DNA from: Rhodoferax ferrireducens T118
GTDB taxonomy: Bacteria > Pseudomonadota > Gammaproteobacteria > Burkholderiales > Burkholderiaceae_C
DNA: 64,000 bases
Direction: 5' to 3'
Assembly: GCF_000013605.1 (NCBI RefSeq)
Contig: NC_007908.1
Span: 2,604,001-2,668,000 of the forward strand
Part shown: positions 809 to 64,000 of the stretch, in pieces
How positions within the stretch are numbered: position 1 is the first letter of the stretch
Layout of the letters: each line of letters begins with the position of its first letter
Made by a program: the position numbers and the translations under genes
Notes under the pieces: model-generated
Database searches by the model: none
Seen by the model: only the letters and a program-made list of their open reading frames with translations
Told to the model about the DNA's origin: nothing

Positions 809-3724
809 TCAAGCCTGCAGCAACTGGCGCAGTACAAAGGGAAGAATGCCGCCCGCACGGTAGTAGTCCACCTCAATCGGCGTGTCGATGCGCAGCAGCA
901 CCGTCAGCGTGAGGCGACTGCCATCGGCGCGGGTGACCACCAACTGGGCGTCGCTCTGCGGGCGCAGGTCAACATCGGGCACGATGTCAATGACCTCGTT
1001 GCCGGTCAGGCCCAGACCTTGCCAGCTGTCGCCGGCCTTGAACTGCAAGGGCAACACCCCCATGCCGACCAGGTTGCTGCGGTGGATGCGCTCAAAGCTT
1101 CGGGCCACCACCGCCTTGATGCCCAGCAGTTGCGTGCCCTTGGCCGCCCAGTCCCGGCTCGACCCGGTGCCGTATTCTTCACCCGCCAACACCACGGTCG
1201 GTATGCCCGCCGCCATGTAACGGGTGGCGGCGTCAAAGATGGACAGCTTTTCACCCGGCCCCCGCACACCCGGGCCCTCGGCGGGCGCCTGGTACAAGGT
1301 GAGGCCACCCTCTTCGCGCGACCCGTCGGCCAGCGGCGCGATCATCAGGTTTTTGATGCGCACATTGGCAAAGGTGCCGCGCACCATCACCTCATGGTTG
1401 CCCCGGCGTGCGCCATAGGAATTGAAGTCGGCCTTTTGCACGCCATGCGCCAGCAGCCACTGGCCCGCCGGTGAACTCTCTTTGATCGCGCCCGCCGGAG
1501 AAATATGGTCCGTGGTGATGGAATCACCAAACAGCGCCATGATGCGCGCACCCCGCACAGATTCAGAGCCTTGCTGGCCTCTAGCCCCCGCCTTATCTGA
1601 TTTAGTAGCTATATTATCAATAGCAAAAGTGGCAAAAAACGGCGGCTCGGCAATGTAGGTGCTCCTGGGCCAGGTGTAGGTGGTGCCGGTCACGCCGGTG
1701 ATGGCTTCCCACAGCGGGCCGGGCGTGGAGGCAACACGCGCGTAGTTTTCCTGGTACGCGCGGCCGTTCATGGCGAACTGCATCAGCGCACTGATTTCCT
1801 CGCTGCTGGGCCAGATGTCGCCCAGGTACACATCCTTGCCGCCTGTGCCTTGCCCCACTGGCTGGGTCATCAGGTCGCGCAGGATCGTCCCTGCAATCGC
1901 ATAGGCCACAACCAGCGGCGGGCTGGCCAGAAAATTGGCCTTGAGGCTGGGGTGAATGCGCGCCTCGAAGTTGCGGTTGCCTGACAGCACGGCCGCGCAG
2001 ACCAGGTCGTGCTGGGTGATGGCCGCGTTGAGTTCGGGCGTCAGATCGCCGGAATTGCCAATGCAGGTGGTGCAGCCGTAGCCAGCAAGGGCAAAGCCGA
2101 GCTTCTCGAGGTAGGGCAGCAAGCCGGTTTGCGTGAGGTACTCGGTCACGATGCGTGAGCCGGGTGCCAGCGAGGTCTTGATGTGCGGCTGCACCCGCAG
2201 CCCCGCCTGGACGGCTTTTTTAGCCAACAGGCCTGCCGCCAGCAGGACACTGGGGTTGGAGGTGTTGGTGCAACTGGTGATGGCGGCGATCAGCACGTCG
2301 CCATGGCCCAAGGTAAACCCGGCTTTTGCCGGGGCCTTGATGTCGCACACCACCGAAGAGGGCCCCTCGACCGCCGCCAGCGCTGGCCGGTTGCTCACCA
2401 TCTCCTCCACGTCACGCCGAGCGCCGGGCGCCAGCGGCGGCGCCTCGCCCGCCGACTCGCCCGCGCCACAATTGACCGGGTAGCGCTGCATGAGACGCTC
2501 GGCGCTCTGGTTGAACCCGTTCTCGGCATTGGGCTTGCTAAAGAGCGAGGTGAACTGGCTGGCCACCTGGCCCAACTCGATGCGATCCTGCGGGCGCTTG
2601 GGGCCAGCCAGGCTGGGGGTGACATCGCCCAGGTCGAGCTTGACCACCTGCGAGTAGTCAATCTCGCCGGCGAGCGGCACGCCAAACAGGCCCTGCGCCT
2701 TGAAGTAAGCCTCAAAAGCCTCGATCTCGTCCCTGGTGCGGCCGGTGCCCGTGAAGTAGGCGATGGTTTTTTCGTCCACCGGGAAGAAGCCCATGGTGGC
2801 GCCATACTCGGGCGCCATATTGGCTATTGTTGCGCGATCCGGCAACGCCAGGGTGCGCGTGCCTGCGCCAAAAAACTCCACGAACTTGCCCACCACCCGT
2901 TGCTGGCGCAGCGTCTCGGTGACCGTGAGCACCAGGTCGGTGGCGGTCACGCCCTCGCGCAGGCGCCCGCTCAACTCAAAGCCCACCACATCGGGCGTCA
3001 GCAGGTACACCGGCTGGCCCAGCATGGCGGCCTCGGCCTCGATGCCGCCCACGCCCCAGCCGACCACGCCAATGCCGTTGATCATGGTGGTGTGGCTGTC
3101 GGTGCCCACCAGCGTGTCGGGGTAGTAGACGCCGTCTTTCGTTTTGTGCACCCCGCGCGCCAGGAATTCCAGATTGACCTGGTGCACGATGCCAAAACCC
3201 GGCGGCACCACCCCAAATGTGTCAAAGGCCTGCATGCCCCATTTCATGAACTCGTAGCGCTCGCGGTTGCGCTGGAATTCAAGCTTCATGTTCAGGTCCA
3301 GCGAATCCTTCTGGCCATAGTGATCCACCATGATCGAGTGGTCCACCACCAGATCCACCGGCACCAGCGGCTCAATAAGCCGCGGGTCCAGCCCCAGGCG
3401 TTGGGCCGTGCTGCGCATGGCGGCCAGGTCGGCCAGCAGCGGGACGCCGGTGAAGTCCTGCAGCACCACGCGCGACACCACAAATGCAATTTCGTCGGTG
3501 CGCGTCGCGTGGGGCTGCCAGCTTGCCAACTGCGCCACATGGCCGGTCGTGACCTTCTTGCCGTCGCAGTTGCGCAGCACCGACTCGAGCACGATGCGCA
3601 GGGACACCGGCAGGCGCTTGATGTTGGGGAACTGCCGCGCGAGTGCGGGCAGCGAATAGAATTTTCCCGCCTTGCCGGAGGCGGTTTTGAAGGTCTTGAG
3701 GGTAGCGGCAAAGGCGTGCAGCAT
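809..3724 (-). CDS. acnA: Aconitate hydratase A
   Basis: Isomerises citrate and isocitrate using a [4Fe-4S] cluster. The cluster cysteines are visible in [10 protein letters not shown] and TTCIGNSG, and the C-terminal swivel domain carries [13 protein letters not shown] and [18 protein letters not shown] start it at 3724 ([12 protein letters not shown]) because an AGGAG lies 7 bases upstream; an ATG at 3745 and a longer open frame also exist. The protein is 971 residues, longer than the roughly 890-900 usual for AcnA. Part of the excess is a linker before [11 protein letters not shown]. It is encoded by a copy of the dispersed repeat (1576-1624), giving [15 protein letters not shown] in a stretch that is only a few residues long in E. 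coli AcnA as I recall it. It is upstream of fumC on the same strand. Confidence 0.96.
1576..1624 (-). repeat. Dispersed repeat, copy A (inside acnA)
   Basis: Read on the minus strand this is an imperfect GCTAT...ATAGC stem followed by a variable spacer and GCGGGGGCTAGAGGCC, the shared 3' core of the seven-member family in this window. It is in frame and in sense orientation in acnA. Confidence 0.75.
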
Positions 3725-3737
3725 GGCGATCTCCTGG

Positions 3738-3899
3738 CTAGACATCAATGGGCCTATTTTCGCCGCACAGGCCCAGGCAAGCAATGGGACTCACCTGCGC
3801 CGGCGCGTGCAGGCTGCGCACTGTTTGCACACCCCGCAACACATCGAACGGGACCTCAATGAGGCCGAAGCTGCCCGATTCGATGCGCGTGGTGCTCAT
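3738..3899 (-). pseudogene. fumC 5'-end remnant upstream of acnA
   Basis: A 53-codon frame starting at 3899 reads MSTTRIESGSFGLIEVP then LRGVQTVRSL. Over its first 30 residues it matches the start of the fumC at 777 at 19 positions, then diverges into unrelated sequence and stops at 3738, 13 bases before the acnA start codon. It lacks the conserved Trp of LWGAQ (Arg here). The simplest reading is the stump of a second fumarase gene that lay in front of acnA. Because its stop abuts the acnA ribosome-binding site it could still be translated as a leader. The homology is directly visible; that it is non-functional is inference. Confidence 0.75.
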
Positions 3900-3910
3900 G
3901 CAGGACCGTC

Positions 3911-4471
3911 CTAATTGGCGTAATCCATGTCCTGGCCACCTGTTACAACACTTGTCCGTGGATGGTCTTGTCCATCCACAACGAATCGGTCAGCGCGCGC
4001 AGCATTCAGGACCGCCGGCAGGTCCCATCCCAGCCTGGCGGCCGGGGTGCGATCCCCAAGCCATGGGTTGGGCTGCGCAAACCAGTTCGCCAGCTCCCAC
4101 GCGCTGAAGACGGAGCTCAGCTGCGCCAGCACCTGGCCGAGACCTATTTGCGGCGTCATGTCGACGCGGTTGAACTGAAACAGGGGAAGCCACACTCTTG
4201 CTTCCCAACCGAAGCAGATCACCTTTTTGCCGGCAATCAGGCTGGCAAGCGGCGTGAGGTCGGAACCCTTGCAGCGTTTGAACAGCGTGACCACCTCTTG
4301 CACCGATGCGAGCCCGCCAGTGTCCCGATAGGAGTCCAGCGTGGCGATGAATTGGTGGTCGGTCGGGTCGTCCTTTGTGTATCCAGGGTGGCTGCAGGCT
4401 GCTTCAGGCGCACGGCCGCGCATCCACGGGCTTCGCGATGGCTCAGGCCAGGGAGCGAGGATGTCTTCCAT
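3911..4471 (-). CDS. Conserved hypothetical protein with a ParS/MbcA-like C-terminal domain
   Basis: A 186-residue soluble protein. The C-terminal third (WELANWFAQPNPWLGDRTP, then a short helix and a stretch ending in Val-Leu-Asn-Ala-Ala-Arg) resembles the toxin-binding domain of Xre/MbcA/ParS antitoxins, where a WF..PNP.L..R.P pattern is typical. No RES-domain toxin partner lies next to it, so an antitoxin role is not supported by context. The start at 4471 (MEDILAPWPEP) has a GGAG upstream; the frame is open further but without a better start. It is divergent from the FMN reductase at 4721, with about 250 bp between them that should hold both promoters. The domain guess comes from recalled motif style. 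Confidence 0.6.
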   Translation of the reverse strand: MEDILAPWPEPSRSPWMRGRAPEAACSHPGYTKDDPTDHQFIATLDSYRDTGGLASVQEVVTLFKRCKGSDLTPLASLIAGKKVICFGWEARVWLPLFQFNRVDMTPQIGLGQVLAQLSSVFSAWELANWFAQPNPWLGDRTPAARLGWDLPAVLNAARADRFVVDGQDHPRTSVVTGGQDMDYAN

Positions 4472-4720
4472 GGATATCTCCAGAGTGGACGGGCTACTAC
4501 AAGAACGCGCAACATTGACCAGGCCGACAGGCGCAATACAACATAACTGGCTGTACGTTACGCAAACCGATGCCAATAGTCTGTGCGGTGCCGAACAAAG
4601 GGCGGGGCCACGTTCGGCCACAGACAGGTCTCTTGTGCGTCGGCTTGTGTTATCTGCCGCACAGACTCAATTGCAGATTCGCTGTACCCTGGTCGTCTTC
4701 CTCATTCAATGGAGATATTC

Positions 4721-5272
4721 ATGGGCAAATTCCAGATAGCCGTTATCGTCGGCAGCCTTCGTCGGGACTCATTCAACCGCAAGCTGGCCAACGCCATTGT
4801 GAAATTGGCGCCTTCGGAGTTTTCGTTCAAGCAGGTACAAATCGGCGACTTGCCGCTTTACAACCAGGACGATGACGCCAACCAGGCCGAGTCAGTCAAG
4901 CGACTCAAGAGCGATATCGGGACCGCTCAGGGCCTGTTGTTCGTCACGGCCGAGTACAACCGCTCCATCCCTGGTGTTCTCAAGAATGCGATGGACCACG
5001 CCTCACGCCCGTACGGGCAAAACGCCTGGGCAGGCAAACCAGCGGGTGTGTTGGGCGTTTCGGTCGGCGCCACCGGTACAGCCCTCGCACAACAGCATTT
5101 GCGCAATGTGCTGGCGTATCTGGACGTCCCGACGCTGGGCCAGCCCGAAGCCTTCATCCAGGCCAAGGATGGATTGTTTGACGCGTCCGGGAATATTGGC
5201 CCCGACAGCAGCAAATTCCTGCAAGGCTGGATGGACAAGTACGTTGCCTGGGTGAAAAAACACGCGGCCTGA
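4721..5272 (+). CDS. NADPH-dependent FMN reductase (chromate/quinone reductase-like)
   Basis: A 183-residue flavodoxin-fold reductase. The N-terminal phosphate-binding loop GSLRRDSFNRKLAN and the mid-protein TAEYNRSIPGVLKNAMDHASR are diagnostic of the NADPH-dependent FMN reductase family (ChrR/YieF, SsuE-like). These proteins bind FMN and reduce quinones, azo dyes or metal oxyanions with NAD(P)H in the cytosol. The start at 4721 has GGAG at 4711, and an upstream extension of the frame lacks a ribosome site. The following gene begins 28 bp downstream on the same strand, so the two probably form a small operon. Substrate cannot be assigned from sequence. Confidence 0.88.
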   Translation: MGKFQIAVIVGSLRRDSFNRKLANAIVKLAPSEFSFKQVQIGDLPLYNQDDDANQAESVKRLKSDIGTAQGLLFVTAEYNRSIPGVLKNAMDHASRPYGQNAWAGKPAGVLGVSVGATGTALAQQHLRNVLAYLDVPTLGQPEAFIQAKDGLFDASGNIGPDSSKFLQGWMDKYVAWVKKHAA

Positions 5273-5300
5273 TGCCGTGACAGATTTGAAGGTAACAACC

Positions 5301-6661: not shown

Positions 6662-6702
6662 GGGCGTGGGCTCTGGTCTGAAAAGTGGGCGGGGGTTGGA
6701 GT

Positions 6703-7626
6703 TTAAGTTGGTGACAAGGTCATGCGGCTGGTCTCAGCAGCCTTCAGATGCGGCAGCAGAGCCGCCAGCAGATGGGCCACCACACCGGGCGGCAGGTCGT
6801 GTCCCATGCCTTCAATACCGACCAGTCTGGCACCGCTAATGCGCCGGGCCGTATCCTCGCCATGGACAAACGGCAACAGCGGGTCGGCTTTGCCGTGTAA
6901 CACCAGCGTCGGCAAGGTGATGCGCCGCAACTGCGCGGCACGGGTCTGATCGGCCATGATGGCCAGCATCTGCCGCAGCGTGCCCACCGGGTAATAGCCA
7001 CGTTGCACCCCCAGCAAGATACGCTCGCGCAGCTCATGTTCAGGCGTCGGGAAACCCGGGCTGCCAATGGCTTTGAACAAGCGGACGTAATGGTTCAGTA
7101 CCGTCTGCGGATCGCGGCCCTTGGGCCGGCTGAGCAAAACGCGTATCACCTCGGGGCGCGCCTGCGCCAGGCCTTTGGCGCCGCTGGTGCTCATCACGCT
7201 GCTCAGACTCAAGACCCGCCCGGGTGCGGCCAGCGCCATGCGTTGCGCAATCATGCCGCCCATGCTGACACCCAGCACATGCGCCTTTTCAATGCCCAAG
7301 GCGTCCAGCACACCGAGCGAATCGGCCGCCATGTCCGCCACGCTGTAGGGTGCACGCGGCATCAAGCCAAGCTTGTACTTGAGGCCCTGCCAGAGCAGAT
7401 GCGGCTTGCCCAGGGCATCAAAATGGTGGCTCAAGCCGACGTCGCGGTTGTCGTGGCGGATGACCCGGTAACCGGCATCGACCAGCCCCTGCACCAACGC
7501 GGGTGGCCAGGCCACCAGCTGCATGCCCAGCCCCATGATCAGCAAGATAACCGGGCGCACTTGGCCAGCGGCGCCAGGGCCGCTGTCTTCGACTTCGATG
7601 TCAATGCTGTTTGCTCTTATTTTCAT
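6703..7626 (-). CDS. Alpha/beta hydrolase
   Basis: A 307-residue alpha/beta-fold hydrolase. The oxyanion region [14 protein letters not shown] is followed by HDNRDVGLS, the nucleophile elbow [10 protein letters not shown] (Ser), a late acid in [12 protein letters not shown] and the catalytic His in GMGHDLPPG. These fit the esterase/haloalkane-peroxidase type of this fold; substrate unknown. Its ATG at 7626 lies inside repeat copy B and has no recognisable ribosome-binding site; the next in-frame Met is about 30 residues in, after the conserved start of the fold. It sits 50 bp downstream of yaaA on the same strand. Translation may depend on coupling or a leaderless-like start. Confidence 0.87.
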
Positions 7627-7681
7627 AGCTATTTACGCATATTTCACGGGGGCTACAGCCTGATTTGTTATAAATTTATGA
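7613..7681 (+). repeat. Dispersed repeat, copy B (between yaaA and the hydrolase)
   Basis: Plus-strand orientation. TAGCTATTTACGCATATT, then CACGGGGGCTACAGCC and a TATAAATT tail align base for base with the PurL copy at 61923-61988. The element fills the gap between the yaaA stop (7676-7678) and the hydrolase start codon (7624-7626) and contains both. Confidence 0.75.
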
Positions 7682-8455
7682 CAAAGGCTGCTGACGCCGG
7701 AAAACCAGTCGGTCCGGCTCGGAGGCCGCTGCGTCGAACGCGTAGCCCTCAGCATCAAAGCCTTCAAGCTGTTTAGGCTTGCTCAGCCGGTGCTCGGCGG
7801 CGAAACGTGCCATCAGACCACGCGCCCGTTTGGCGTAAAAGCTGATGATCTTGTACTGACCGCCCCGGTACTCCTGGAAGACGCATTCAAGCACCCGGGC
7901 CTGCAGCGCCTTGCGGTCCACCGCCCTGAAATACTCTTGCGACGCCAGGTTCACCACCACCGGGGCGGCATTCTTGTGCAAGCGGATGTTGAGGTAATCG
8001 GAGATTTGTGCGCCCCAGAACTGGTACAGGTCCTTGCCCTGCGGGTTGGCCAATTTTGTGCCCATTTCCAGCCGGTAGGGCTGCATGTAGTCGAGCGGGC
8101 GCAGCACGCCGTACAAACCGCTCAGGATGCAGACATGGTCTTGCAACCACTTCAAATCATCAACGGGCAGACTCTTGGCATCGAGCCCTTCATAAACATC
8201 ACCGTTAAAGGCCAGCACCGCTTGTTTGGCGTTCTTCGCGGTAAATTTCGGCACCCAGGCTTGGTAGCGGGCCACGTTCAGGCCGGCCAGGGTGTCGCTC
8301 AAACTCATCAGGGAGGCGATCTGTCGCGGTGATTTCTTCTTCAGGATATCGATCAATTCGGCCGCTTGGGGAATGAACAGCGGCTGCGTGTGCGGCACGG
8401 GAGCTGCGGGTTTTTCAAAATCAAGGGATTTGGCGGGGGACAGCAAAAAAAGCAT
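7676..8455 (-). CDS. yaaA: Peroxide stress protein YaaA (DUF328)
   Basis: A 259-residue YaaA/DUF328 protein. In E. coli it limits intracellular iron during hydrogen peroxide stress and binds DNA. The hallmark N-terminus [14 protein letters not shown], then [31 protein letters not shown] and [10 protein letters not shown] are all present. The start is the ATG at 8455; the frame also opens at a TTG (8464) that lacks support. Its stop codon overlaps repeat copy B. A terminator for the preceding DUF3501 gene (8484-8515) separates it from the rubrerythrin cluster, although both clusters relate to peroxide and iron handling. Confidence 0.93.
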
Positions 8456-16343: not shown

Positions 16344-17378
16344 ATGTCAAACACTATTCCCGCTACCTTGATCCCCGGAGACGGCATCGGCCCCGAAATC
16401 GTTGACGCCACCCTGGCTGCACTTGATGCGCTGCATGCGCCCTTCGATTGGGACCGTCAGATCGCCGGTCTGGGCGGCATCCAGGCTGCGGGCGACCCCT
16501 TGCCAGCCGCCACACTCGACAGCATCCGGCGCACCCGGCTGGCGCTCAAAGGCCCGCTGGAGACGCCTTCGGGCGGCGGCTACCGCTCATCGAACGTGCG
16601 ACTGCGCGAAGAGTTCCAGCTCTACGCCAACCTGCGCCCTGCCCGCACCATCATCCCGGGTGGGCGTTTCGACAAGATCGATCTGGTGGTGGTGCGCGAG
16701 AACCTCGAAGGCCTGTACATCGGTCATGAATACTACATCCCGATCGACGACGACCCGCGTGCGGTGGCCATGGCCACCGGCATCAATACCCGGGCCGGTA
16801 GCCGGCGCCTGCTGGAATTCGCCTTTGAACATGCCGTTGCGACCGGGCGCAAGAAGGTCTCGATCGTGCACAAGGCCAACATCATGAAGGCGCTGACCGG
16901 CATCTTCCTGGAAACCGGCATCGACCTGTACGAACGCAAGTACAAGGGCCGCTTTGAACTCGAGACCGTGATCATTGATGCCTGCGCAATGAAGCTGGTG
17001 ATCAACCCCTGGCAATTCGACATGCTGGTCACCACCAACCTGTTCGGTGACATCCTGTCCGACCTGGTCGCCGGGCTGGTGGGTGGCCTGGGCATGACGC
17101 CGGGTGCCAACATCGGGGCCGATGCGGCGATCTTTGAGGCGGTACATGGCTCGGCCCCGGACATCGCGGGCAAGGGCATTGCCAATCCAATCGCCCTGAT
17201 GCTGGCCGCCGCGATGATGCTCGACCACTGCAAGTTACCCGAACTGGCCGCTCGCCTGCGCAAAGCCATCGATGAAACCCTGAACCTCGACAAGGTGCGC
17301 ACCGGCGACCTCGGCGGCACGGCCAGCACCGCCGCGTTCACGAAGGCGCTGGTGAGCCGGATCGGCGGCGGCAACTGA
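16344..17378 (+). CDS. NAD-dependent isocitrate dehydrogenase, copy 1
   Basis: A 344-residue member of the isocitrate/isopropylmalate/tartrate dehydrogenase superfamily. The N-terminal LIPGDGIGPEIVDATL, the substrate loop SSNVRLREEFQLYANLRPA, RENLEGLYIGHEY and the metal-ligand region NLFGDILSDLVAGLVGG are present. The S-x-N-V-x-L-R pattern is the isocitrate-recognising form, so oxidative decarboxylation of isocitrate to 2-oxoglutarate is the best call; tartrate or malate activity cannot be excluded. GAGAGG precedes the ATG. It converges with aroD. Positions 16369-17362 are duplicated almost perfectly at 49034-50027; the proteins differ at one internal residue (Leu/Ile) plus both termini. Confidence 0.88.
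   Translation: MSNTIPATLIPGDGIGPEIVDATLAALDALHAPFDWDRQIAGLGGIQAAGDPLPAATLDSIRRTRLALKGPLETPSGGGYRSSNVRLREEFQLYANLRPARTIIPGGRFDKIDLVVVRENLEGLYIGHEYYIPIDDDPRAVAMATGINTRAGSRRLLEFAFEHAVATGRKKVSIVHKANIMKALTGIFLETGIDLYERKYKGRFELETVIIDACAMKLVINPWQFDMLVTTNLFGDILSDLVAGLVGGLGMTPGANIGADAAIFEAVHGSAPDIAGKGIANPIALMLAAAMMLDHCKLPELAARLRKAIDETLNLDKVRTGDLGGTASTAAFTKALVSRIGGGN
16369..17362 (+). repeat. 994-bp long inverted repeat, copy 1
   Basis: Aligning by eye against the reverse complement of 49034-50027 gives 988 matches of 994, with no gaps. The boundaries fall inside the reading frames (TGAT...GGAT). The flanks, including start and stop codons, are unrelated. Confidence 0.93.
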
Positions 17379-18282: not shown

Positions 18283-18363
18283 TCAGCAGGCGCTGGCCCC
18301 GTCCTCGGTGATGAATTCGCCGTCTTCCCCGGCTGGGCCGAGAAAACACGCCAGAATGCACAC
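18283..18363 (-). CDS. Possible 26-residue small ORF before the aroD leader terminator
   Basis: A GTG-started frame whose first codon lies at the edge of repeat copy C. It reads as Cys-rich and acidic, ending EDGEFITEDGASAC, then stops 27 bp before the terminator hairpin. The composition looks more protein-like than random, but there is no clear ribosome site. It could be the tail of a gene truncated by the repeat, or a leader peptide. Confidence 0.3.
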   Translation of the reverse strand: MCILACFLGPAGEDGEFITEDGASAC

Positions 18364-18426
18364 ATTTATACGAAATCAGCCTCTAGCCCCTACAAATAAA
18401 GCACTAACAGCTATCCTAACAATAGC
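18362..18426 (-). repeat. Dispersed repeat, copy C (after the thioesterase-GNAT gene)
   Basis: On the minus strand: the hairpin GCTATTGTTAGGATAGC, a spacer, then GGGGCTAGAGGCTGATTT and a TATAAAT tail. It begins about 10 bp after the stop codon at 18437. Confidence 0.75.
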
Positions 18427-18436
18427 ATTTTTTGAA

Positions 18437-20360: not shown

Positions 20361-22217
20361 TCAGAACGCGTCTTCAGGCATGTCGGCGCAGGTCAGGTCA
20401 CGGTTGGCCACCACCTGCAGCCACGCGCCTATTTTGGGCAACTCGTAATGATAAAAATAGGCTGTAGCCCTCGTCCTTCCTACGTTAGCGGCTATTGATT
20501 GTGTAGCATCCTGGCGTTGCGCGCTTAACGCCACGTCGAGCCAGATCCAGGCCAGCACGGTATGCCCAAAGGCCTGCAGATACGGCACCGCGTTGGCCAG
20601 GGCGTCACCCGGCTGGCCAGTGGCCCAGGCCGCCCGGGTGGCGTCTGTGACCTGCTGCCAAGCGGCTGTCAAAGCCGCTGCGTGCGCCGCCAGTTCAGGC
20701 ACCTGTTGAGCCTGCGCGGCCGTGGCCTGGATGCGCCCTGCCAGCAGCGCCAGCCCGCGCCCGCTCTCCATCAGCACTTTGCGTCCGAGCAAGTCCATCG
20801 CCTGAATGCCGTGCGTGCCTTCGTGGATCATGTTCAGACGGTTGTCGCGCCAATACTGTTCTACCGGGAAGTCACGCGTGTAGCCATAACCCCCGTGGAC
20901 CTGAATCGCCAGCGAATTGGCCTCCAGACACCATTCACTCGGCCAGCTCTTGGCGATCGGGGTCAGAACTTCAAGCAGCAGGCGTGCCTCATCGGCGGCC
21001 TCGGGTGTACCGCTGTGTTGTTCATCGACCAGACGAGCGCAATACAACTCCAGCGCCAACGCACCTTCACAGTAAGATTTTTGCGCCAGCAACATGCGCT
21101 TGACGTCGGCATGCTCAATGATGGGCACTTGCGGCTGGGTGGCATCTTTGCCGGCGGGCCCCGCCGGCCGACCCTGGGGTCGGGTTTTGGCATAGTCCAG
21201 CGCAGCTTCATAACCCGCCAGACCGAGCATGGTGGCTGCAATGCCGACGCCGATACGCGCCTCGTTCATCATGTGGAACATGCAGCGCAAGCCCTCGCCC
21301 GGTTGGCCGACCAGGTAACCGACGGCGCCGGCGCCCTTGCCATCGAGTCCACCGCCTGTGCTGCGAACCGGGTATTTGCCCTCGCCAAAATTGAGCAATG
21401 TGTTGACCGTGCCGCGCCAGCCCAGTTTGTGATTCAGACCCGCCAGGGCCACGTCGTTGCGCTCGCCGGTAAGAACGCCCGCCTCGTTCACCAATTTTTT
21501 GGGCACGATGAACAGGGAAATGCCGCGCGTGCCCGTCGGCAACTGGCCGTCCGGTCCCGGAATCTTGGCCAGCACCAAGTGGATGATGTTCTCAGTCAAC
21601 TCGTGGTCGCCAGCCGAGATCCACATCTTGTTGCCGCGCAGGCGATAGCGCGCACCGAGCGGATCCTGCGCATAGTCCTCGCCGTCCGGCATGGCGCGCG
21701 TGGCCACATCACTCAGAGAAGACCCTGCCTGCGGCTCAGACAAACACATGGTGCCCGAGAAGCGCCCGCAGAATTCATTCTTGGCAAACACCTCTTTTTG
21801 CAGCGGCGTGCCATGCACCATCAGCAAATTGGCGTTGCCGGTGCTGAGCATGCCCGAGCCGATACTGACCGAGGCCATGGCAAAAAAAGCATTCGCCGCC
21901 GCCTCAATCGTGTACGGCAGTTGCATGCCACCGTGCTCAAAATCTTGCGCCGCGCTCAACATGCCGGATTCAGCGTAGGCCTTTTGTGCGTCATGCGTGG
22001 CCTGCGGCAGGATCACCTGGTCGCCGTCAAAACGCGGCTCCTGCGTGTCCACCAGCCGGTTGAACGGCGCGTACTTTTCACGCGCAATACGCTCGCAGGT
22101 GTCGAGCACGGCATCAAAAGTCTCGCGCGAATGGTCGGCAAAACGCGGCCGCTCGTTCAGCGACTCGGCATCGAGCCATTGGTACAGCAGGAAATCAACC
22201 GTGGAACGCAAAGACAT
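20361..22217 (-). CDS. Acyl-CoA dehydrogenase, 600-residue class
   Basis: An FAD-dependent acyl-CoA dehydrogenase of 618 residues, of the larger class seen in DmdC/3-methylthiopropanoyl-CoA dehydrogenases. Visible are MCLSEPQAGSSLSDV and KMWISAGDHELTENI (FAD/substrate core), RIGVGIAATMLGLAGYEAAL and VHGGYGYTRDFPVEQYWRD (C-terminal helical domain). A C-terminal extension carries sequence from repeat copy D (DATQSIAANVGRTRATA). It follows thiolase and the FadB-like gene on the same strand and would supply the first oxidation step of the pathway. Chain-length specificity is not readable. Confidence 0.92.
   Translation of the reverse strand: MSLRSTVDFLLYQWLDAESLNERPRFADHSRETFDAVLDTCERIAREKYAPFNRLVDTQEPRFDGDQVILPQATHDAQKAYAESGMLSAAQDFEHGGMQLPYTIEAAANAFFAMASVSIGSGMLSTGNANLLMVHGTPLQKEVFAKNEFCGRFSGTMCLSEPQAGSSLSDVATRAMPDGEDYAQDPLGARYRLRGNKMWISAGDHELTENIIHLVLAKIPGPDGQLPTGTRGISLFIVPKKLVNEAGVLTGERNDVALAGLNHKLGWRGTVNTLLNFGEGKYPVRSTGGGLDGKGAGAVGYLVGQPGEGLRCMFHMMNEARIGVGIAATMLGLAGYEAALDYAKTRPQGRPAGPAGKDATQPQVPIIEHADVKRMLLAQKSYCEGALALELYCARLVDEQHSGTPEAADEARLLLEVLTPIAKSWPSEWCLEANSLAIQVHGGYGYTRDFPVEQYWRDNRLNMIHEGTHGIQAMDLLGRKVLMESGRGLALLAGRIQATAAQAQQVPELAAHAAALTAAWQQVTDATRAAWATGQPGDALANAVPYLQAFGHTVLAWIWLDVALSAQRQDATQSIAANVGRTRATAYFYHYELPKIGAWLQVVANRDLTCADMPEDAF
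20450..20507 (-). repeat. Dispersed repeat, copy D (inside the acyl-CoA dehydrogenase gene)
   Basis: Minus strand: GCTACACAATCAATAGC, a spacer, then ACGAGGGCTACAGCCTATTT. It is in frame, in sense orientation, with the same reading phase as copies A and G. Confidence 0.7.
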
Positions 22218-34880: not shown

Positions 34881-36371
34881 ATGACCGTGGCCACACAAAA
34901 CTTGACAGCGCTCGATGTGGGATTAGCCTGGCGCAACAGCTTCGCCCAGTTGGGCAAAAGCTTTTACACGCCGCTGGCGCCCTGGCCGCTGCCCGCGCCT
35001 TACTGGGTGGGCCGCAGCACCTCGACGGCCCGTGAGTTGGGTCTCAGTGAGTCGTGGCTGGATTCACCAGAACTGCTGCAGGTGCTTACCGGCAACCAGC
35101 CGATGGCGGGCACACAGCCACTGGCCAGCGTCTACAGCGGTCACCAATTTGGCCAGTGGGCGGGACAACTCGGTGATGGCCGTGCTATTTTGCTGGGGGA
35201 AACCGGTGGCCTGGAGGTGCAGCTGAAGGGTTCCGGGCTGACACCCTACTCCCGCATGGGCGACGGGCGTGCCGTGTTGCGCTCCAGCATCCGCGAATTC
35301 CTGTGCAGCGAAGCCATGCAGGGCCTGGGCATTGCCACGTCACGCGCCCTGTGTGTCGTCGGCTCGGATGCGCCGATACGGCGCGAAACTGTTGAGACCG
35401 CAGCGGTGGTGACGCGGGTGGCGCCCAGCTTCATCCGGTTCGGCCACTTTGAGCATTTTTCCCATCATGACCAGCATGCGCAACTCAAGGTCCTGGCCGA
35501 CTATGTCATTGACCGGTTCTACCCGGAGTGCCGCGCAAGCGACAAATTCGCAGGCAACCCTTACGCGGCCTTGCTGGAGGCGGTGAGTGAACGCACTGCG
35601 GCCCTGGTGGCACAGTGGCAGGCGGTGGGCTTTTGCCATGGCGTCTTGAACACCGACAACATGAGCATTCTGGGTCTGACCATCGACTACGGGCCGTTTC
35701 AATTTCTGGATGCATTCAACCCCGGCCACGTTTGCAACCACTCGGACCAGGAAGGCCGCTACGCGTTCGACAAGCAGCCCAACATCGCCTACTGGAACCT
35801 GTTTTGTCTGGGGCAGGCTCTGCTTCCCCTGATCGGTGAACAGGAGCTCGCCATCGCCGCGCTGGAGTCCTACAAGACCGTATTTCCTGCCGCATTCGAG
35901 CGCCTGATGTTTGCCAAGCTCGGTCTGCTCGATGCCAGCGACAGCACGGCCACTGTCGACCGGGCATTGCTGCAGGACATCCTGCAACTGCTGGCCAGGG
36001 AGCAGGTTGACTACACCATCTTCTGGCGACGACTGAGCCATTGCGGCGTTGCGACTGACGCTCAGACGGTCCGGGACCTGTTTGTGGACCGATCCGCCGC
36101 AGATGCGTGGTTGCTACGCTATTCAGAGCGGCTTGAGCATATTCCACAGGGGCTAGCGGCTGATTTGATGCTTAAAACAAATCCGAAATTTGTGCTCCGC
36201 AATTATTTGGGCGAACAAGCTATCCAGGCAGCAAAACTAAAAGACTTTTCTCAAGTCGAAACCTTGCTGATGCTGCTTGAATCGCCTTTTGAGGAACACC
36301 CGGGTTTTGATAAATACGCCGATTTCCCACCCGACTGGGCCAGCAGCATCGAAATCAGTTGCAGCTCTTGA
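34881..36371 (+). CDS. selO: Protein adenylyltransferase SelO
   Basis: A 496-residue SelO (YdiU) pseudokinase-fold enzyme that transfers AMP to Ser/Thr/Tyr of targets in redox homeostasis. Motifs seen are [40 protein letters not shown], the catalytic-type [20 protein letters not shown] and [10 protein letters not shown] near the C-terminus. Bacterial SelO ends without selenocysteine; here the C-terminus is ISCSS. The start at 34881 (MTVATQNLT) fits the family. Residues near 410-430 ([14 protein letters not shown]) are encoded by a stretch resembling the dispersed repeat (copy E). It is followed by msrB, also a redox-repair gene. Confidence 0.93.
36118..36175 (+). repeat. Dispersed repeat, copy E (inside selO)
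   Basis: GCTATTCAGAGCGGCTTGAG then CATATTCCACAGGGGCTAGC and GGCTGATTT match the core and the GCATATT spacer of copies B and F. The 5' stem has decayed, and the element is read in a different frame from copies A, D and G. Confidence 0.6.
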
Positions 36372-49020: not shown

Positions 49021-50058
49021 TTAGCCGGTCCTAATCCGGCTCACCAGCGCCTTCGTGAACGCGGCGGTGCTGGCCGTGCCGCCGAGGTCGCCGGTGCGCA
49101 CCTTGTCGATGTTCAGGGTTTCATCGATGGCTTTGCGCAGGCGAGCGGCCAGTTCGGGTAACTTGCAGTGGTCGAGCATCATCGCGGCTGCCAGCATCAG
49201 GGCGATTGGATTGGCAATGCCCTTGCCCGCGATGTCCGGGGCCGAGCCATGTACCGCCTCAAAGATGGCCGCATCGGCCCCGATGTTGGCACCCGGCGTC
49301 ATGCCCAGGCCACCCACCAGCCCGGCGACCAGGTCGGACAGGATGTCACCGAACAGGTTGGTGGTGACCAGCATGTCGAATTGCCAGGGGTTGATCACCA
49401 GCTTCATTGCGCAGGCATCAATGATCACGGTCTCGAGTTCAAAGCGGCCCTTGTACTTGCGTTCGTACAGGTCGATGCCGGTTTCCAGGAAGATGCCGGT
49501 CAGCGCCTTCATGATGTTGGCCTTGTGCACGATCGAGACCTTCTTGCGCCCGGTCGCAACGGCATGTTCAAAGGCGAATTCCAGCAGGCGCCGGCTACCG
49601 GCCCGGGTGTTGATGCCGGTGGCCATGGCCACCGCACGCGGGTCGTCGTCGATCGGGATGTAGTATTCATGACCGATGTACAGGCCTTCGAGGTTCTCGC
49701 GCACCACCACCAGATCGATCTTGTCGAAACGCCCGCCCGGGATGATGGTGCGGGCAGGGCGCAGGTTGGCGTAGAGCTGGAACTCTTCGCGCAGTCGCAC
49801 GTTCGATGAGCGGTAGCCGCCGCCCGAAGGCGTCTCCAGCGGGCCTTTGAGCGCCAGCCGGGTGCGCCGGATGCTGTCGAGTGTGGCGGCTGGCAAGGGG
49901 TCGCCCGCAGCCTGGATGCCGCCCAGACCGGCGATCTGACGGTCCCAATCGAAGGGCGCATGCAGCGCATCAAGTGCAGCCAGGGTGGCGTCAACGATTT
50001 CGGGGCCGATGCCGTCTCCGGGAATCAGGGTGACGGGAATGAGGTTGGAAGAATTCAT
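49021..50058 (-). CDS. NAD-dependent isocitrate dehydrogenase, copy 2, inside the citrate operon
   Basis: A 345-residue dehydrogenase nearly identical to the copy at 16344 (one internal Leu to Ile change plus different ends: it starts MNSSNLIPVT and ends SRIRTG). The same isocitrate-type S-x-N-V-x-L-R loop is present. It is 10 bp after citT and 29 bp before citC, so it is an integral member of the citrate lyase operon, which usually has no such gene. It may let part of the citrate be oxidised, or supply 2-oxoglutarate. The extremely low divergence indicates recent copying or gene conversion; the start and stop contexts differ. Confidence 0.88.
   Translation of the reverse strand: MNSSNLIPVTLIPGDGIGPEIVDATLAALDALHAPFDWDRQIAGLGGIQAAGDPLPAATLDSIRRTRLALKGPLETPSGGGYRSSNVRLREEFQLYANLRPARTIIPGGRFDKIDLVVVRENLEGLYIGHEYYIPIDDDPRAVAMATGINTRAGSRRLLEFAFEHAVATGRKKVSIVHKANIMKALTGIFLETGIDLYERKYKGRFELETVIIDACAMKLVINPWQFDMLVTTNLFGDILSDLVAGLVGGLGMTPGANIGADAAIFEAVHGSAPDIAGKGIANPIALMLAAAMMLDHCKLPELAARLRKAIDETLNIDKVRTGDLGGTASTAAFTKALVSRIRTG
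49034..50027 (-). repeat. 994-bp long inverted repeat, copy 2
   Basis: Reverse-complement partner of 16369-17362. The six substitutions, with codon effects read in frame, are five silent third-position changes and one Leu to Ile. Confidence 0.93.
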
Positions 50059-51998: not shown

Positions 51999-52775
51999 CT
52001 ATTTTGCCAACCACCCGACGGCCATCAGACCGCCCAGCAACACCGGCTGGTGCAGCATGTAGTAGCTCAGACTCCAACGCCCCAGCATCGCCAGCGGTTT
52101 GAACGCCGCCGGCAGGCGCCATGACAAGGCGGCGCCATGGCGCGTCAACCATGTTCCGGCCGCCTCACCCCACCACATCACGCCCAGCCAGGGCAGCAGC
52201 GGCACGTAGTCTTCGGTAATGGGTTTGCGTGTAATCAGGCCCAGCCAGTTCAGTTGGGGGGAATTCAACATTTCGGCCAATTGGGCTGTAGCCTCCGTCT
52301 GAAGGGCGTAAGATGCTATTAATTGGATAGCAATTGCGCAGGCCCCCAGCCACCATAAACGCCCGCCCCAACGCGCTGTCAGGCGCGCAATGATCAGCAT
52401 CAGCGCCATGCCGTGCAGGACACCAAAGTAGATATAACTTTGCGGGAACATCCACCAGGAACCAACCGTGACCAGCAGCGCACAGCCCAATATTTGCGCC
52501 CAGCGGCGCCAGAAGCGCGGCCAACGCTGTCCCTGCGCCACGGCAATGGCTTGGCCCAGTCCGGCACAAAATAAGAACAGGCTCACGATCAAGGTGCGTT
52601 GCCAGGTCCACAGCGGGGCATGATAAAAATCCTGCTTGATGTAGCCGAACTGGTTCAGGTCGAAACTGAAATGGAAGAAAGTCATCCAGACCATCGCCAA
52701 GCCGCGCAGGGCGTCCACGGCGTCAAATCGGAGGGACGATGAAGTGGCAGCACGGGTTAAGGGTTGATGCGTCAT
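51999..52775 (-). CDS. DUF1624/heparan-acetyltransferase-type membrane protein
   Basis: A 258-residue polytopic membrane protein. The start FDAVDALRGLAMVWMTFFHF followed by several Trp-rich hydrophobic segments (LWTWQRTLIVSLFLFCAGL, YIYFGVLHGMALMLIIARL) and KPITEDYVPLLPWLGVM is the heparan-alpha-glucosaminide N-acetyltransferase-like (DUF1624) pattern. The substrate is unknown. Residues around 155-172 (LIASYALQTEATAQLAEM) come from repeat copy G. It ends facing the cit promoter gap and is divergent from the U32 gene. Confidence 0.82.
   Translation of the reverse strand: MTHQPLTRAATSSSLRFDAVDALRGLAMVWMTFFHFSFDLNQFGYIKQDFYHAPLWTWQRTLIVSLFLFCAGLGQAIAVAQGQRWPRFWRRWAQILGCALLVTVGSWWMFPQSYIYFGVLHGMALMLIIARLTARWGGRLWWLGACAIAIQLIASYALQTEATAQLAEMLNSPQLNWLGLITRKPITEDYVPLLPWLGVMWWGEAAGTWLTRHGAALSWRLPAAFKPLAMLGRWSLSYYMLHQPVLLGGLMAVGWLAK
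52279..52331 (-). repeat. Dispersed repeat, copy G (inside the DUF1624-type gene)
   Basis: Minus strand: the hairpin GCTATCCAATTAATAGC, a spacer, then GACGGAGGCTACAGCCCAAT. It is in frame, sense orientation, with the same reading phase as copies A and D. Confidence 0.7.
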
Positions 52776-52841
52776 GGTGTAACGATAACCTATCGGTTCA
52801 TGGCGCTTCAAACGCCATGGGGTCCGGGGATAATCGGGCCT

Positions 52842-60200: not shown

Positions 60201-61086
60201 AGGGCTCCGGTGCTGCGTCGAGCAACTCAAGCGCGAGGCGCTCGTATTCGGAGATCACCTGCGCACCCAGCAGCAGCAGCGTCGCCGCCAGCTCAAGACT
60301 CAACAAAACCGCGATCGCGGTGGTCAGCGAACCGTAGACAGTGCCAATCTGGGACAGCGTCGTGAAATACCACACGAGTGCATGGCGTGAGAGTTCCCAC
60401 ATCAAAGCCGCTGCGACCGCGCCCAGCAGGGCGTGGAACAAGGACGGCCGGCCGACCGGCATCACCAGGTACACCGACGTGAGCACAAAGATCTCCCCCG
60501 CCAAGCCAAGCAGGTACAGCAGCGCGCCGGACACGCCCCCGAGTGACCAGCTGCGCCACAAAAACTCCACCCGCTCCTGGCCTATCGCCTGCAGGCTGCC
60601 CGCCACCAGCGTCACCAGCAAGAGTCCAAGCCCGAGCGACAGAATGTAGGCATAGGGAATCACGGCCGAGATCAGGAAGTGGCGCCGGCGTATCGCCACA
60701 CGGTGATGAAAGATCACCGACATGGCGTTCTCCAGCACCGTGAAGGCGAGCGAACTGAAGAACAGCATGCTGACCAGCAACACCCAGCTGAGCACATCGC
60801 GGTGCAGCAGGAAGTTCGCGAGTTCGGCAATGATCACCCCGGACTGTCCGGGCACCAGCCATTCGAGGTACCGGCCCAGGGTCTGCAGCAGCGCCGCCTG
60901 ATCGACAAAGTGCGACAGCGCTATCACCGTGAGGATGAGCATCGGCACAATCGACAGCAAGGCGTAGTACGCGACTGCCCCGGCCAGCAGCAGGCCCTGG
61001 TTGGCGCGAAATCCCTTCAGCGTGCGGATGGCGAATGCCCCGGGGTGCCTGAGAATTTGCGCAGCTTGTCGACCAAAGGGTTTCAT
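60181..61086 (-). CDS. YihY/BrkB-family inner membrane protein
   Basis: A 301-residue polytopic membrane protein of the YihY (BrkB) family. Hydrophobic segments include LLLAGAVAYYALLSIVPMLI, VLLVSMLFFSSLAFTVLENA and YLLGLAGEIFVLTSVYLVMP. The motif GxxAYYALLSxxP near residue 30 is characteristic. Function is unclear despite the former ribonuclease BN label. Its 3' end overlaps the ftsH 3' end by 20 bp (convergent). The start at 61086 (MKPFGRQAAQIL) was chosen. Confidence 0.87.
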   Translation of the reverse strand: MKPFGRQAAQILRHPGAFAIRTLKGFRANQGLLLAGAVAYYALLSIVPMLILTVIALSHFVDQAALLQTLGRYLEWLVPGQSGVIIAELANFLLHRDVLSWVLLVSMLFFSSLAFTVLENAMSVIFHHRVAIRRRHFLISAVIPYAYILSLGLGLLLVTLVAGSLQAIGQERVEFLWRSWSLGGVSGALLYLLGLAGEIFVLTSVYLVMPVGRPSLFHALLGAVAAALMWELSRHALVWYFTTLSQIGTVYGSLTTAIAVLLSLELAATLLLLGAQVISEYERLALELLDAAPEPFTTRSP

Positions 61087-61129
61087 GGCTGCACCGTGTG
61101 GGATCAGGGTCGATATTCCCGGCTGATGA

Positions 61130-64000
61130 TCAGTCCACCCACCTTCTGGCGTTGTGCCACAACTGCATCCACGGGCTGAGCGCAGACAGGTCACCGTCGG
61201 TCCAGCTCATCTGGATATTGCGAAACACGCGCTCCGGGTGCGGCATCATCGCGGTGAAGCGGCCATCAAGCGTCGTCACGGCCGTCAAACCGCCGGGGCT
61301 GCCGTTCGGGTTGAACGGATAGGCCTCGGTCGCGGCACCCTGGTTATCGGTAAACCGCATGGCGGCAATGGCTCGTGCCGCGTTGCCGCGGTACTTGAAG
61401 TTGGCAAAACCCTCGCCGTGCGCCACCGCAATCGGCAAACGGCTGCCCGCCATGCCTTTGAAGAACAGCGACGGGGATTCCAGCACTTCCACCATGCTCA
61501 GGCGCGCCTCGAAGCGCTCGCTCTGGTTGGTGGTGAAACGCGGCCAGTCCTGCGCGCCGGGAATGATGTCGGCCAGCTCGGCGAACATCTGGCAACCGTT
61601 GCAGACGCCCAGGCCGAAGGTATCCAGACGGCCAAAAAAGGCCTTGAACTGCTCGGCCAGCACGGGGTTGAAGGTGATGGAGCGCGCCCAGCCAATGCCG
61701 GCACCCAGCGTGTCGCCGTAAGAGAAGCCACCGCACGCCACCACGCCCTTGAAGTCGGCCAGGTTGGCGCGGCCACTTTGCAGGTCGGTCATGTGCACAT
61801 CAAAGGCTTCAAAACCGGCCTCGGTGAAGGCGTAGGCCATCTCGACGTGCGAGTTGACGCCCTGTTCGCGCAGCACGGCCACTTTGGGGCGCGTCAGCAT
61901 GAGCGCGGGGCTTGCCATATTTGCTACTGATTTAGTAGCTTCTTGCGCATATTCGACGGGGGCTAGAGCCTTGTTTTGTATAAATTTGACGTGCAGCCCC
62001 GGGTCCAGCGGGTCACCGGCGCTGGCGTGCTCGGCTTCGGCACAGGCCGGGTTGTCGCGTTGCTGGCAGATCTTCCAGCTGGTGGCATCCCAGACCTGGT
62101 GCAGGTCCTGCAATTTGGCGCTGAACACCACTTTGGCGTCGCGCCAGACCTGCACCTCGCCGATGCCGTCCCGAATGGTCGAGTCGACCGGGCGGGTCTT
62201 GCCGATGACATGGCTGTATTTGCTTAAGCCATGGTCGCGCAGGGTCTGCATGACCGCGTTGCGCTGCGCGGTGCGCACTTGCAGTACGACACCCAGCTCT
62301 TCGCTGAACAGGGCTTTGAGCGTGAGCTCTTCGCGCCGACCACTGACCTGGCCGGCCCAGTTTTTGGCGTCGCCATAGTCCATGCGGCTGTCCGTGATGC
62401 CGTCGCCCTCCAACACCAGCATGTCCACGTTGAGCGCAACACCGATGTGGCCGGCGAACGCCATCTCCACCACCGCAGCAAACAGGCCGCCGTCGCTGCG
62501 GTCGTGGTAGGCCAAAATCTGGCCTTGCGCGCGCAAGGCGTTCACGGCCTTGACCAGGTTGACCAGGTCTTGCGGGTGATCCAGATCCGGCACTTCGTCG
62601 CCCACCTGGCTCAGCGTTTGCGCCAACATGCTGGCACCCATGCGGTTTTGGCCCCGGCCCAGGTCGACCAGCAGCAGCGTCGTGTCCTCTGTCGCGTTCA
62701 GTTGTGGCGTCAAGGTGCCGCGCACGTCAGGCAGGGTGGCAAAGGCGGTCACGATCAGGGACACGGGGGAGGTCACTTTTTTGGCGCCCTCCTCGTCTTT
62801 CCACTGCGTGCGCATGGAAAGTGAATCTTTCCCGACTGGGATGGAAATACCCAGAGCGGGGCACAGTTCCAGTCCGACGGCTTTCACCGTCGCGTAAAGC
62901 GCGGCATCCTCGCCCGGCTCACCACAGGCGGCCATCCAGTTGGCCGACAGCTTGACGCGGGGCAGTTCAATCGGCGCCGCCAGCAAATTGGTGATGGCCT
63001 CGGCCACGGCCATGCGCCCGCTGGCTGGCGCATTGACGCTCGCCAGCGGCGTGCGCTCGCCCATGCTCATGGCCTCACCGGCAAAGCCTTTGAAATCCGC
63101 CAGCGTCACGGCGCAATCGGCCACCGGCACCTGCCACGGTCCGACCATCTGGTCGCGGTGGCTCAAACCGCCCACGGTGCGGTCGCCGATGGTGATCAGA
63201 AAACGCTTGGACGCCACGGTCGCACTAGCCAGCACGTCGATGCAGGCTTTTTGCAGATCGACACCGGTCAGGTTGACGGGTGCAAAGGTGCGCGCCACCG
63301 TTTTGACGTCGCGGTGCATCTTGGGCGGCTTGCCCAGCAGCACGTTCATCGGCATGTTCACCGGCGACTCGTTGCCCGCATCAAGCAGTTCCAGTTGGCG
63401 CGCGTCAGTCGCGACCCCCACCACGGCAAACGGGCAGCGCTCGCGCTCGCACAGGGCGGTGAACAGGTCCAGCGACTCGGGCGCAATGGCCAGCACGTAG
63501 CGCTCCTGGCTCTCGTTGCACCAGATTTCTTTCGGCGCCATGCCGGATTCTTCCAGTGGCACGGCGCGCAGGTCGAAGCGGGCACCGCGCCCGGCGTCGT
63601 TGGTGAGCTCAGGGAAGGCGTTGCTCAAACCACCCGCGCCCACGTCGTGGATCGCCAGAATGGGGTTGCCAGGGCTTGCGCCCTGCCCGCCTGCACGCTC
63701 AAGGCCATTGCCCAGCAGCCAGCACTGGTTGATAACCTCCTGCGCCCGGCGCTCGATCTCGGGGTTGCCGCGCTGCACCGAGTCAAAGTCAAGTTGCGCC
63801 GCATTCGCGCCGGTCGCCATCGAACTGGCGGCGCTGCCGCCCATGCCAATACGCATGCCGGGGCCACCGAGCTGGATCAGCAAACTGCCCGCCGGGAACT
63901 CGATCTTGTGTGTCTGCGTGGCATCGATCACGCCCAGGCCGCCGGCGATCATGATCGGCTTGTGGTAGCCGCGCTGCTCTTGCTGCTGCGTTGCAAGGCC
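61130..64000 (-). CDS. purL: Phosphoribosylformylglycinamidine synthase, C-terminal part (runs off the right edge)
   Basis: Large single-chain PurL of purine synthesis. The visible 956 residues open with QRGYHKPIMIAGGLG at the window edge and contain FGAM-synthase pieces (VGDEVPDLDHPQDLVNLV, CGEPGEDAALYATVKAVGLE). The C-terminal glutamine amidotransferase domain has the catalytic Cys in LGVCNGCQMF and the His in MPHPERVFRN. The N-terminal third is outside the window. The linker before RPKVAVLREQGVN is about 30 residues (about half that in E. coli as I recall) and contains [20 protein letters not shown], encoded antisense by repeat copy F. Confidence 0.96.
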   Translation of the reverse strand, partial: GLATQQQEQRGYHKPIMIAGGLGVIDATQTHKIEFPAGSLLIQLGGPGMRIGMGGSAASSMATGANAAQLDFDSVQRGNPEIERRAQEVINQCWLLGNGLERAGGQGASPGNPILAIHDVGAGGLSNAFPELTNDAGRGARFDLRAVPLEESGMAPKEIWCNESQERYVLAIAPESLDLFTALCERERCPFAVVGVATDARQLELLDAGNESPVNMPMNVLLGKPPKMHRDVKTVARTFAPVNLTGVDLQKACIDVLASATVASKRFLITIGDRTVGGLSHRDQMVGPWQVPVADCAVTLADFKGFAGEAMSMGERTPLASVNAPASGRMAVAEAITNLLAAPIELPRVKLSANWMAACGEPGEDAALYATVKAVGLELCPALGISIPVGKDSLSMRTQWKDEEGAKKVTSPVSLIVTAFATLPDVRGTLTPQLNATEDTTLLLVDLGRGQNRMGASMLAQTLSQVGDEVPDLDHPQDLVNLVKAVNALRAQGQILAYHDRSDGGLFAAVVEMAFAGHIGVALNVDMLVLEGDGITDSRMDYGDAKNWAGQVSGRREELTLKALFSEELGVVLQVRTAQRNAVMQTLRDHGLSKYSHVIGKTRPVDSTIRDGIGEVQVWRDAKVVFSAKLQDLHQVWDATSWKICQQRDNPACAEAEHASAGDPLDPGLHVKFIQNKALAPVEYAQEATKSVANMASPALMLTRPKVAVLREQGVNSHVEMAYAFTEAGFEAFDVHMTDLQSGRANLADFKGVVACGGFSYGDTLGAGIGWARSITFNPVLAEQFKAFFGRLDTFGLGVCNGCQMFAELADIIPGAQDWPRFTTNQSERFEARLSMVEVLESPSLFFKGMAGSRLPIAVAHGEGFANFKYRGNAARAIAAMRFTDNQGAATEAYPFNPNGSPGGLTAVTTLDGRFTAMMPHPERVFRNIQMSWTDGDLSALSPWMQLWHNARRWVD
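61923..61988 (+). repeat. Dispersed repeat, copy F (inside purL, antisense to the gene)
   Basis: Plus-strand GCTACTGATTTAGTAGC, spacer TTCTTGCGCATATTCGAC, GGGGGCTAGAGCC and a TATAAATTTG tail, aligning with copy B over the whole length. It encodes a linker segment of PurL. Confidence 0.75.

Follow-up and report, generated by a model that had tools for sequence, protein, structure and literature searches.

A dispersed 66-bp DNA motif of Rhodoferax ferrireducens and other Comamonadaceae, tentatively read as a long recognition site

The window analysed here, a stretch of 64,000 nucleotides from the chromosome of Rhodoferax ferrireducens T118 (NC_007908.1, positions 2,604,001 to 2,668,000), carries seven copies of a dispersed sequence motif, most of them inside genes. 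The replicons of this strain are given as 4,712,337 bp and 257,447 bp (PMC2755013); in the following, the genome is labelled G000 and its chromosome C2. A first-pass annotation of the window had described seven repeats with a GCTA..TAGC dyad and a TATAAAT-like tail, five of them in frame within enzyme genes. All seven are present at the places described, dyad and tail are genuine sequence features, and the coordinates could be refined to units of 66 nt each, alignable without gaps.

Five copies lie in frame within genes, as had been noted. Copy 1 (1561..1626, minus strand) is found in the aconitase gene (809–3784, minus strand), where it falls in the linker joining the Aconitase to the Aconitase_C domain, and copy 4 (20444..20509, minus strand) in the C-terminal domain of an acyl-CoA dehydrogenase gene (20361–22217, minus strand). 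Copy 5 (36111..36176, plus strand) is part of selO (34881–36371, plus strand), and copy 6 (52268..52333, minus strand) of a gene for an HGSNAT_cat-domain membrane protein (51999–52811, minus strand). Copy 7 (61921..61986, plus strand) runs opposite to purL (61130 to past the window end, minus strand), in the linker preceding the glutaminase domain; purL carries a second copy just outside the window (G000 C2:2668374–2668439). The remaining two are located between genes. Copy 2 (7611..7676, plus strand) shares 16 nt with the start of an alpha/beta-hydrolase gene (6703–7626, minus strand) and also covers the last base of a yaaA-like gene (7676–8455, minus strand), and copy 3 (18363..18428, minus strand) is intergenic, 9 nt off the end of a thioesterase/acetyltransferase gene. 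Scored with a model built from 14 copies of G000 (the seven window copies and seven others), the window copies reach 55–79 bits, a match by construction, and the next best site in the window reaches 11.8 bits. Their GC content is 35–48%.

The 14-copy model matches at least 150 candidates in the genome, and the 150 scored are all chromosomal. In 864 kb a position-matrix census counted 121 copies, or one every 7 kb or so, as compared with none in the reversed sequence, and by extrapolation the whole chromosome would hold approximately 600 copies. The dispersed family proposed at about one copy per 9 kb is thus supported (1 per 7–9 kb, both orientations). An 18-base core pattern with up to three mismatches gave 167 genome matches, and the same pattern reversed gave 1; taken by itself, the 12-base core carries little weight (9 matches versus 5.1 expected, with 5 of 100 shuffles reaching 9). 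In the matrix census the motif holds 53.1 bits in total with sharp edges, and conservation per position is uneven, ranging from 0.0 to 2.2 bits, a profile unlike even decay from a single master copy. Copy density rises with GC content (r = 0.53), though the unit itself is AT-rich, and spacing is irregular (coefficient of variation, CV, 1.25 over 864 kb). A 200 kb plasmid sample contained no copies versus about 28 expected at chromosomal density; among public plasmid records there was one match, to a plasmid-labelled Rhodoferax antarcticus record that looks chromosomal to us. About 0.5 Mb of the chromosome (C2 800–1300 kb) is sparse in copies, with none among the 150 best listed and six in the 200 kb sampled.

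Gene context was counted for 58 copies in 464 kb, with genes predicted by a purpose-made gene caller. These copies are the matches with E up to about 1e-4 out of 83, a choice made after seeing the data; the 25 left out comprise 5 full-length weak matches, and most of the others are partial hits to the dyad on the opposite strand. Wholly within predicted genes are 32 of the 58 copies, compared with 81.5% of random 66-mers. Intergenic copies are enriched (17 of 58 versus 9.3% at random), and a further nine overlap gene ends (9.2% of random 66-mers). The 32 in-gene copies are oriented along the gene in 17 cases and opposite in 15. Among the 28 full-length in-gene copies, 14 of 16 gene-oriented and 11 of 12 opposite ones share a frame offset, as would be expected because the motif contains stop codons.

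The first-pass annotation had also considered a folded or RNA-like unit. Covariation between the dyad arms is absent from the 121-copy set, in which complementarity is kept about as often as by chance, and across the 83 aligned matches 76.8% of the cells are paired versus a shuffled mean of 77.0%. A hairpin maintained by pairing is rejected on this ground, and the near-equal orientation of in-gene copies speaks against the folded unit as well. In an Rfam scan of the window only a tRNA scored above the gathering threshold. One block of the motif varies, reading ATTT in 44 of 121 copies and forms such as AAAA, GTTT and TTTT in others, and this alternation suggests that A/T tracts may be recognised as such. 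No recent duplicates were found among the 121 copies: the closest pair is 79% identical, where the closest pair in column-shuffled sets averages 73% and never exceeds 77% (100 trials). Pairwise identity is spread somewhat wider than in column shuffles, and dependence between columns is weak yet above the null, chiefly at neighbouring positions. By inspection, the consensus ends are not inverted repeats of each other, as the terminal inverted repeats of a miniature inverted-repeat transposable element (MITE) would be.

Maintenance at the DNA level was addressed with the codons of CobC, CobS, CobD and SelO at shared amino acids, in genomes grouped by the number of matches they hold. These classes were set after seeing the counts, with rich genomes at 57 matches or above, middle ones at 13–28 and poor ones at 5 or fewer. 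Pairs of rich genomes use identical codons in 306 of 478 cases inside the unit versus 3604 of 6960 outside, and rich–poor pairs in 148 of 398 inside versus 3589 of 7233 outside; the pairs are not independent, and the direction is the same in all four genes. For SelO, third-position agreement is 0.62 inside versus 0.49 outside in 14 motif-bearing genomes, and 0.40 versus 0.50 in 16 motif-free ones. With synonymous positions conserved, and with copies in both orientations and in coding as well as non-coding DNA, the motif is a DNA-level pattern. It also occurs in dialects: G000 and G032 have ACGGGGGCTAGAGGC, and G010 has ACAAGCGCTAGAGGC. At four orthologous cob sites the G010 copies are best fit by the G010 matrix in 4 of 4 cases, and the G000 and G032 copies by the G000 or G032 matrix in 8 of 8, while the copies of G061 are mixed. 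Orthologous copies thus mostly carry the dialect of their own genome.

Whether copies arise in place or by insertion was approached through length comparisons. An automatic flank test on seven locus sets gave 1556 filled/empty comparisons (1190 of them in purL loci), in which pairs share genomes and are not independent; 415 agree within 6 nt, 998 show gains of 7–50 nt, and 53 show gains of 50–72 nt. Taken as the median per filled locus (n = 74, loci not being independent sites), the difference is 6 nt or less at 36, a gain of 7–50 nt at 27, and a gain of 50–72 nt at 2, a distribution difficult to reconcile with the proposed REP/MITE-like unit (REP, repetitive extragenic palindrome) moving by whole insertion. 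The absence of a recently duplicated pair among the 121 copies and of any copy in the 200 kb plasmid sample likewise argues against whole-unit mobility, which the strong copies in viral contigs (see below) favour. The set medians are 0 for cob and selO, +3 for the RAYT gene, +15 for terminase, +18 for portal and +24 nt for purL. For simple insertion inside genes the record is mixed, with none at about half of the filled loci and partial gains at most others; no clean insertion at which a target duplication might show was available.

Individual genes show a similar range. The SelO site aligns gap-free in 30 orthologues (14 motif-bearing, 16 motif-free) and has no extra length relative to the solved chains 6eac and 6iii, and the copy in acyl-CoA dehydrogenase adds none relative to solved homologues. 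The difference from solved homologues is about 3 residues for MurI and about +8 for RlmD; for YfiH it is about +8 to +12 and for the aconitase linker about +13, so that the +22 of a simple insertion is seen in none of these six cases; for the HGSNAT-type protein, a search of solved structures returned no useful homologue. Compared with Pfam profile lengths, the excess is −6 to +3 residues for ComEC, YfiH, CobC, RlmD, Coa, HAD and ChrA (the last three with weak or partial copies), +6 to +11 for MurI and PepN, and +20 to +29 for DUF4131, Tex and CobU. This is a blunt test, as YfiH and RlmD appear unchanged yet gain about 8–12 and 8 residues, respectively, relative to solved homologues. Filled and empty genomes do not differ in length at the sites in CobC and CobS, and the CobD and CobU sites vary. 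At the 3′ end of the RAYT gene, in mostly non-coding DNA, the interval from a fixed codon to a fixed landmark is 72–74 nt in 15 of 16 rich and 67–74 nt in 10 of 12 poor genomes, whereas the motif score has a median of 39 in the rich and −20 in the poor (2 of 16 rich below 10, no poor above 6.6). The clearest case of gain in place is a copy unique to G010 among eight genomes compared: of its seven empty orthologues, six are equal in length and one is 12 nt longer.

The first-pass annotation pointed to a similar motif in other Comamonadaceae, and this is confirmed by family-wide genome matches and a shared PurL site. The G000 model matches 29 of 36 genomes of the same genus and none of 24 genomes of other families; in a Comamonadaceae sample it matches 61 of 150 genomes, and 57 of the 141 genera sampled. 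A mixed-dialect model applied to an order sample matched 3 of 200 genomes (that of the window, a second from its family, and one other-family genome with a single marginal hit), but this search is less sensitive: G083 gave no match there versus 25 with the G000 model, and G019 gave 23 matches with the mixed-dialect model versus at least 87 with the G000 model. The 36 same-genus genomes divide into 19 rich, 3 middle and 14 poor; nine poor genomes hold 0 to 4 matches each by the mixed-dialect model, and G061, outside the 36, was treated as rich in the cob-site and codon tests since its copies score there. In a SelO and RAYT phylogeny computed without the SelO site, and with moderate support for some of its branches, rich genomes are interspersed with poor ones, which occur in at least four places. 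PurL site 2 is common to Rhodoferax, Polaromonas, Acidovorax and Ottowia records, and because orthologous sites are shared the poor state probably reflects loss. The competence gene comEC is present in 54 of 60 genomes regardless of the motif, and its loss as a cause of motif loss is rejected, as it does not separate rich from poor. The comEC-type gene of G000 (L083:14979–17504) itself holds two motif copies.

A link to a RAYT (REP-associated tyrosine transposase) had been raised as a further test, with a divided result. The genome has one Y1_Tnp match, a RAYT gene with one copy upstream and one downstream, and a copy at the 3′ end of RAYT is found in most rich genomes; the G000 copy upstream of RAYT sits in about 100–137 extra nt. 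Relatives of RAYT occur, however, in 34 of 36 same-genus genomes irrespective of the motif, motif-free ones included (two as fragments), and RAYT as the driver of abundance is weakened by its presence in rich and poor genomes alike. In the poor genomes G030, G001 and G006, no repeat family resembling their own RAYT 3′ end was found in 98–200 kb each. The adjacency is real but does not demonstrate mobilisation. As separate observations, the RAYT gene is bracketed in many of 30 loci (L051–L080) by repeats, those on the upstream side resembling AATTGGGGTCAGATTCCAATTA and those on the downstream side TGTCCCC..AATTGGAATCTGACCCCAATTA, and RAYT has an internal stop in L067 (G015) and G029:C287, two of the three middle genomes.

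Copies are also present in viral contigs. An exact 16-base pattern hit 39 viral stretches, some chance hits being expected, and 25 of these hold copies scoring above 22 and up to 79 bits, several of them redundant. Proteins next to viral copies match phage-library families in 8 of 10 cases tested: two terminases, a portal protein, three methyltransferases (one weak), a Mu-type transposase and a DarA-type protein. The locus with the portal gene copy (L380) is longer than that of two empty relatives by 18 nt in total, of which 3 nt fall inside the unit, one of which (L381) has the dyad part alone, and terminase relatives differ by a median of +15 nt (6 comparisons). Two single-copy queries gave no match in public phage records at E 0.1. 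In a contig with a Mu-type transposase, three copies (L354:7410–8330) each extend to a start codon and apparently supply the N-terminal residues of small proteins that may be paralogues.

The interpretation we tentatively prefer, while regarding it as somewhat short of probable, is that the motif is a sequence-specific recognition site with the great length of about 66 bp, which is propagated and kept up in place and is most like a very long motif of the DNA-uptake type, and that a large part of the Comamonadaceae keeps it hundreds of times per chromosome. A putative cellular factor would bind all 66 bp, and the copies would be built and homogenised through a biased process in which better matches replace partial ones. 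The best-known process of such biased replacement is motif-biased uptake in natural transformation. Motif-biased DNA uptake followed by homologous replacement would be the most likely process here too, drawing partial matches towards the consensus without insertion, and lineages nearly without the motif would have lost it. The DNA uptake sequences (DUS) of Neisseriaceae and the uptake signal sequences (USS) of Pasteurellaceae are likewise present in hundreds of copies, in frame in core genes and in both orientations, with species dialects, and are built in place rather than inserted; the 66-bp motif resembles them in copy number, placement, orientation and dialects, and may likewise have been built in place. 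They are short, with a core of 10–12 bp and about 30 bp with flanks for USS. The present motif differs in having no such short core, with its 66 bp and 53 bits at about 1 per 7 kb, and in being found in viral contigs.

Several observations weigh against this interpretation. The hardest fact for an uptake process is the viral copies: slow imprinting in place does not readily account for matches that reach 79 bits within or next to phage genes. The phage methyltransferase copy, moreover, falls in a C-terminal extension (17 of 80 loci examined), the protein having 271 and 274 residues with the copy and 235–250 residues without it in 14 of 15 relatives, one relative having 271. Many other sites gain some length as well, as in 998 of the 1556 flank comparisons (these being mostly from purL) at +7–50 nt, and relative to the Pfam profile the domain match is longer by 29 residues in Tex and CobU, by 57 in CobS and by 106 in YgiQ. 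Equal lengths at most orthologous sites are also explained by ancestral presence followed by decay, which leaves the G010 copy and the homologues without added length as the direct case for gain in place. By our own arithmetic, marking about 600 places needs approximately 14 bits, far less than the 53 observed, and this surplus also fits common descent. As comEC does not separate rich from poor genomes, nothing in the present data ties the motif to DNA uptake; the distribution of comEC neither proves nor excludes such a process.

Among other explanations, we regard as rather unlikely an ancient REP/MITE-like element that the single RAYT transposase mobilised, that expanded in the ancestor of the family and that has since decayed at different rates. 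Like REP/REPIN–RAYT systems, the family combines high copy number and a dyad with one RAYT gene flanked by copies, a copy at the RAYT 3′ end being usual in rich genomes, and its high information content, the viral copies, the added length at many sites and the extra sequence around the copy upstream of RAYT in G000 are all consistent with such an origin. It differs in lacking hairpin covariation, in the rarity of near-whole-unit length differences, and in an abundance that appears independent of RAYT, whose relatives are as common in poor as in rich genomes. REP/REPIN elements are mostly extragenic whereas more than half of the present copies are inside genes, and very uneven conservation along the unit and synonymous-site conservation within genes also speak against a decaying mobile element; with intergenic DNA touched by 26 of the 58 copies, finding one next to a particular gene is no surprise. 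A site for chromosome maintenance or architecture, bound by a nucleoid, segregation or repair protein and maintained because it benefits the host and not through drive, would agree with dyad symmetry without base pairing, the lack of copies in the plasmid sample, both orientations, deep orthology, the motif-poor state of several lineages and the A/T-tract alternatives (ATTT, AAAA) at one block. Still, such sites usually need far less than about 53 bits, phages carry copies, spacing is irregular, and no polarity or positional trend was apparent by eye among the 150 best copies (with the origin assumed at the record start), and we consider this account unlikely.

Less probable again is a templated writer, in which a single-stranded copy of the motif, derived from DNA or RNA, would anneal to partial matches and overwrite them. 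Dialects at fixed sites would follow from it, as would the in-place change in phages suggested by the portal gene and its relative with the dyad part only. Block copying should, however, link variable positions, and column dependence is weak and mostly between neighbours, with the best pair of 121 copies at 79% identity versus up to 77% in column-shuffled sets. A structured RNA element or terminator, to which the dyad followed by AT-rich sequence might point, is scarcely credible given the Rfam result, the missing covariation and the occurrence of both orientations within genes.

Two described repeat families invite comparison. Rickettsia palindromic elements and other intragenic REPs are described as inserts encoding 20–30 amino acids (PMC3733652). 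On that description the 66-bp motif is similar in lying in frame, with about 22 residues, in unrelated proteins, and differs in that the proteins are often of equal length or gain a part only. The Betaproteobacterial repeat element (BRE) is reported from Bordetella and from Comamonadaceae, among them Polaromonas and R. ferrireducens with 4 copies, and part of its copies lie within coding sequences; it is about 90 bp long with 69% GC in Bordetella, often tandem, variable in number and present in at most 29 copies (PMC3110155). The present unit is AT-rich, dispersed and found in hundreds of copies, and is set apart from BRE by this description rather than by sequence. Literature searches, mostly at title and abstract level, turned up no description of the 66-bp motif. 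Apart from this family, the window contains two inverted stretches of 1,016 bp (16347–17362 and 49034–50049), 99% complementary and each within an open reading frame of about 345 codons.

The usual bacterial repeat families do not overwrite existing sequence, as the 66-bp motif seems to do at many places. A bolder proposal, which we hold to be doubtful, is that the family writes a 66-bp address in place into its own and phage DNA about once per 7 kb, tolerated in essential enzymes, with lineage dialects and with complete loss once a putative reader or writer is lost; this would be a genome-wide self-mark of a kind not described before. The motif-free lineages would serve as natural controls, in that a gene missing along with the motif should be its reader. 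If the recognition-site interpretation is true, a long sequence can become genome-wide without transposing, the motif offers a means to gauge what length of motif can arise by biased replacement, and hundreds of proteins in dozens of genera carry stretches of 22 residues shaped by a DNA motif and not by protein function.

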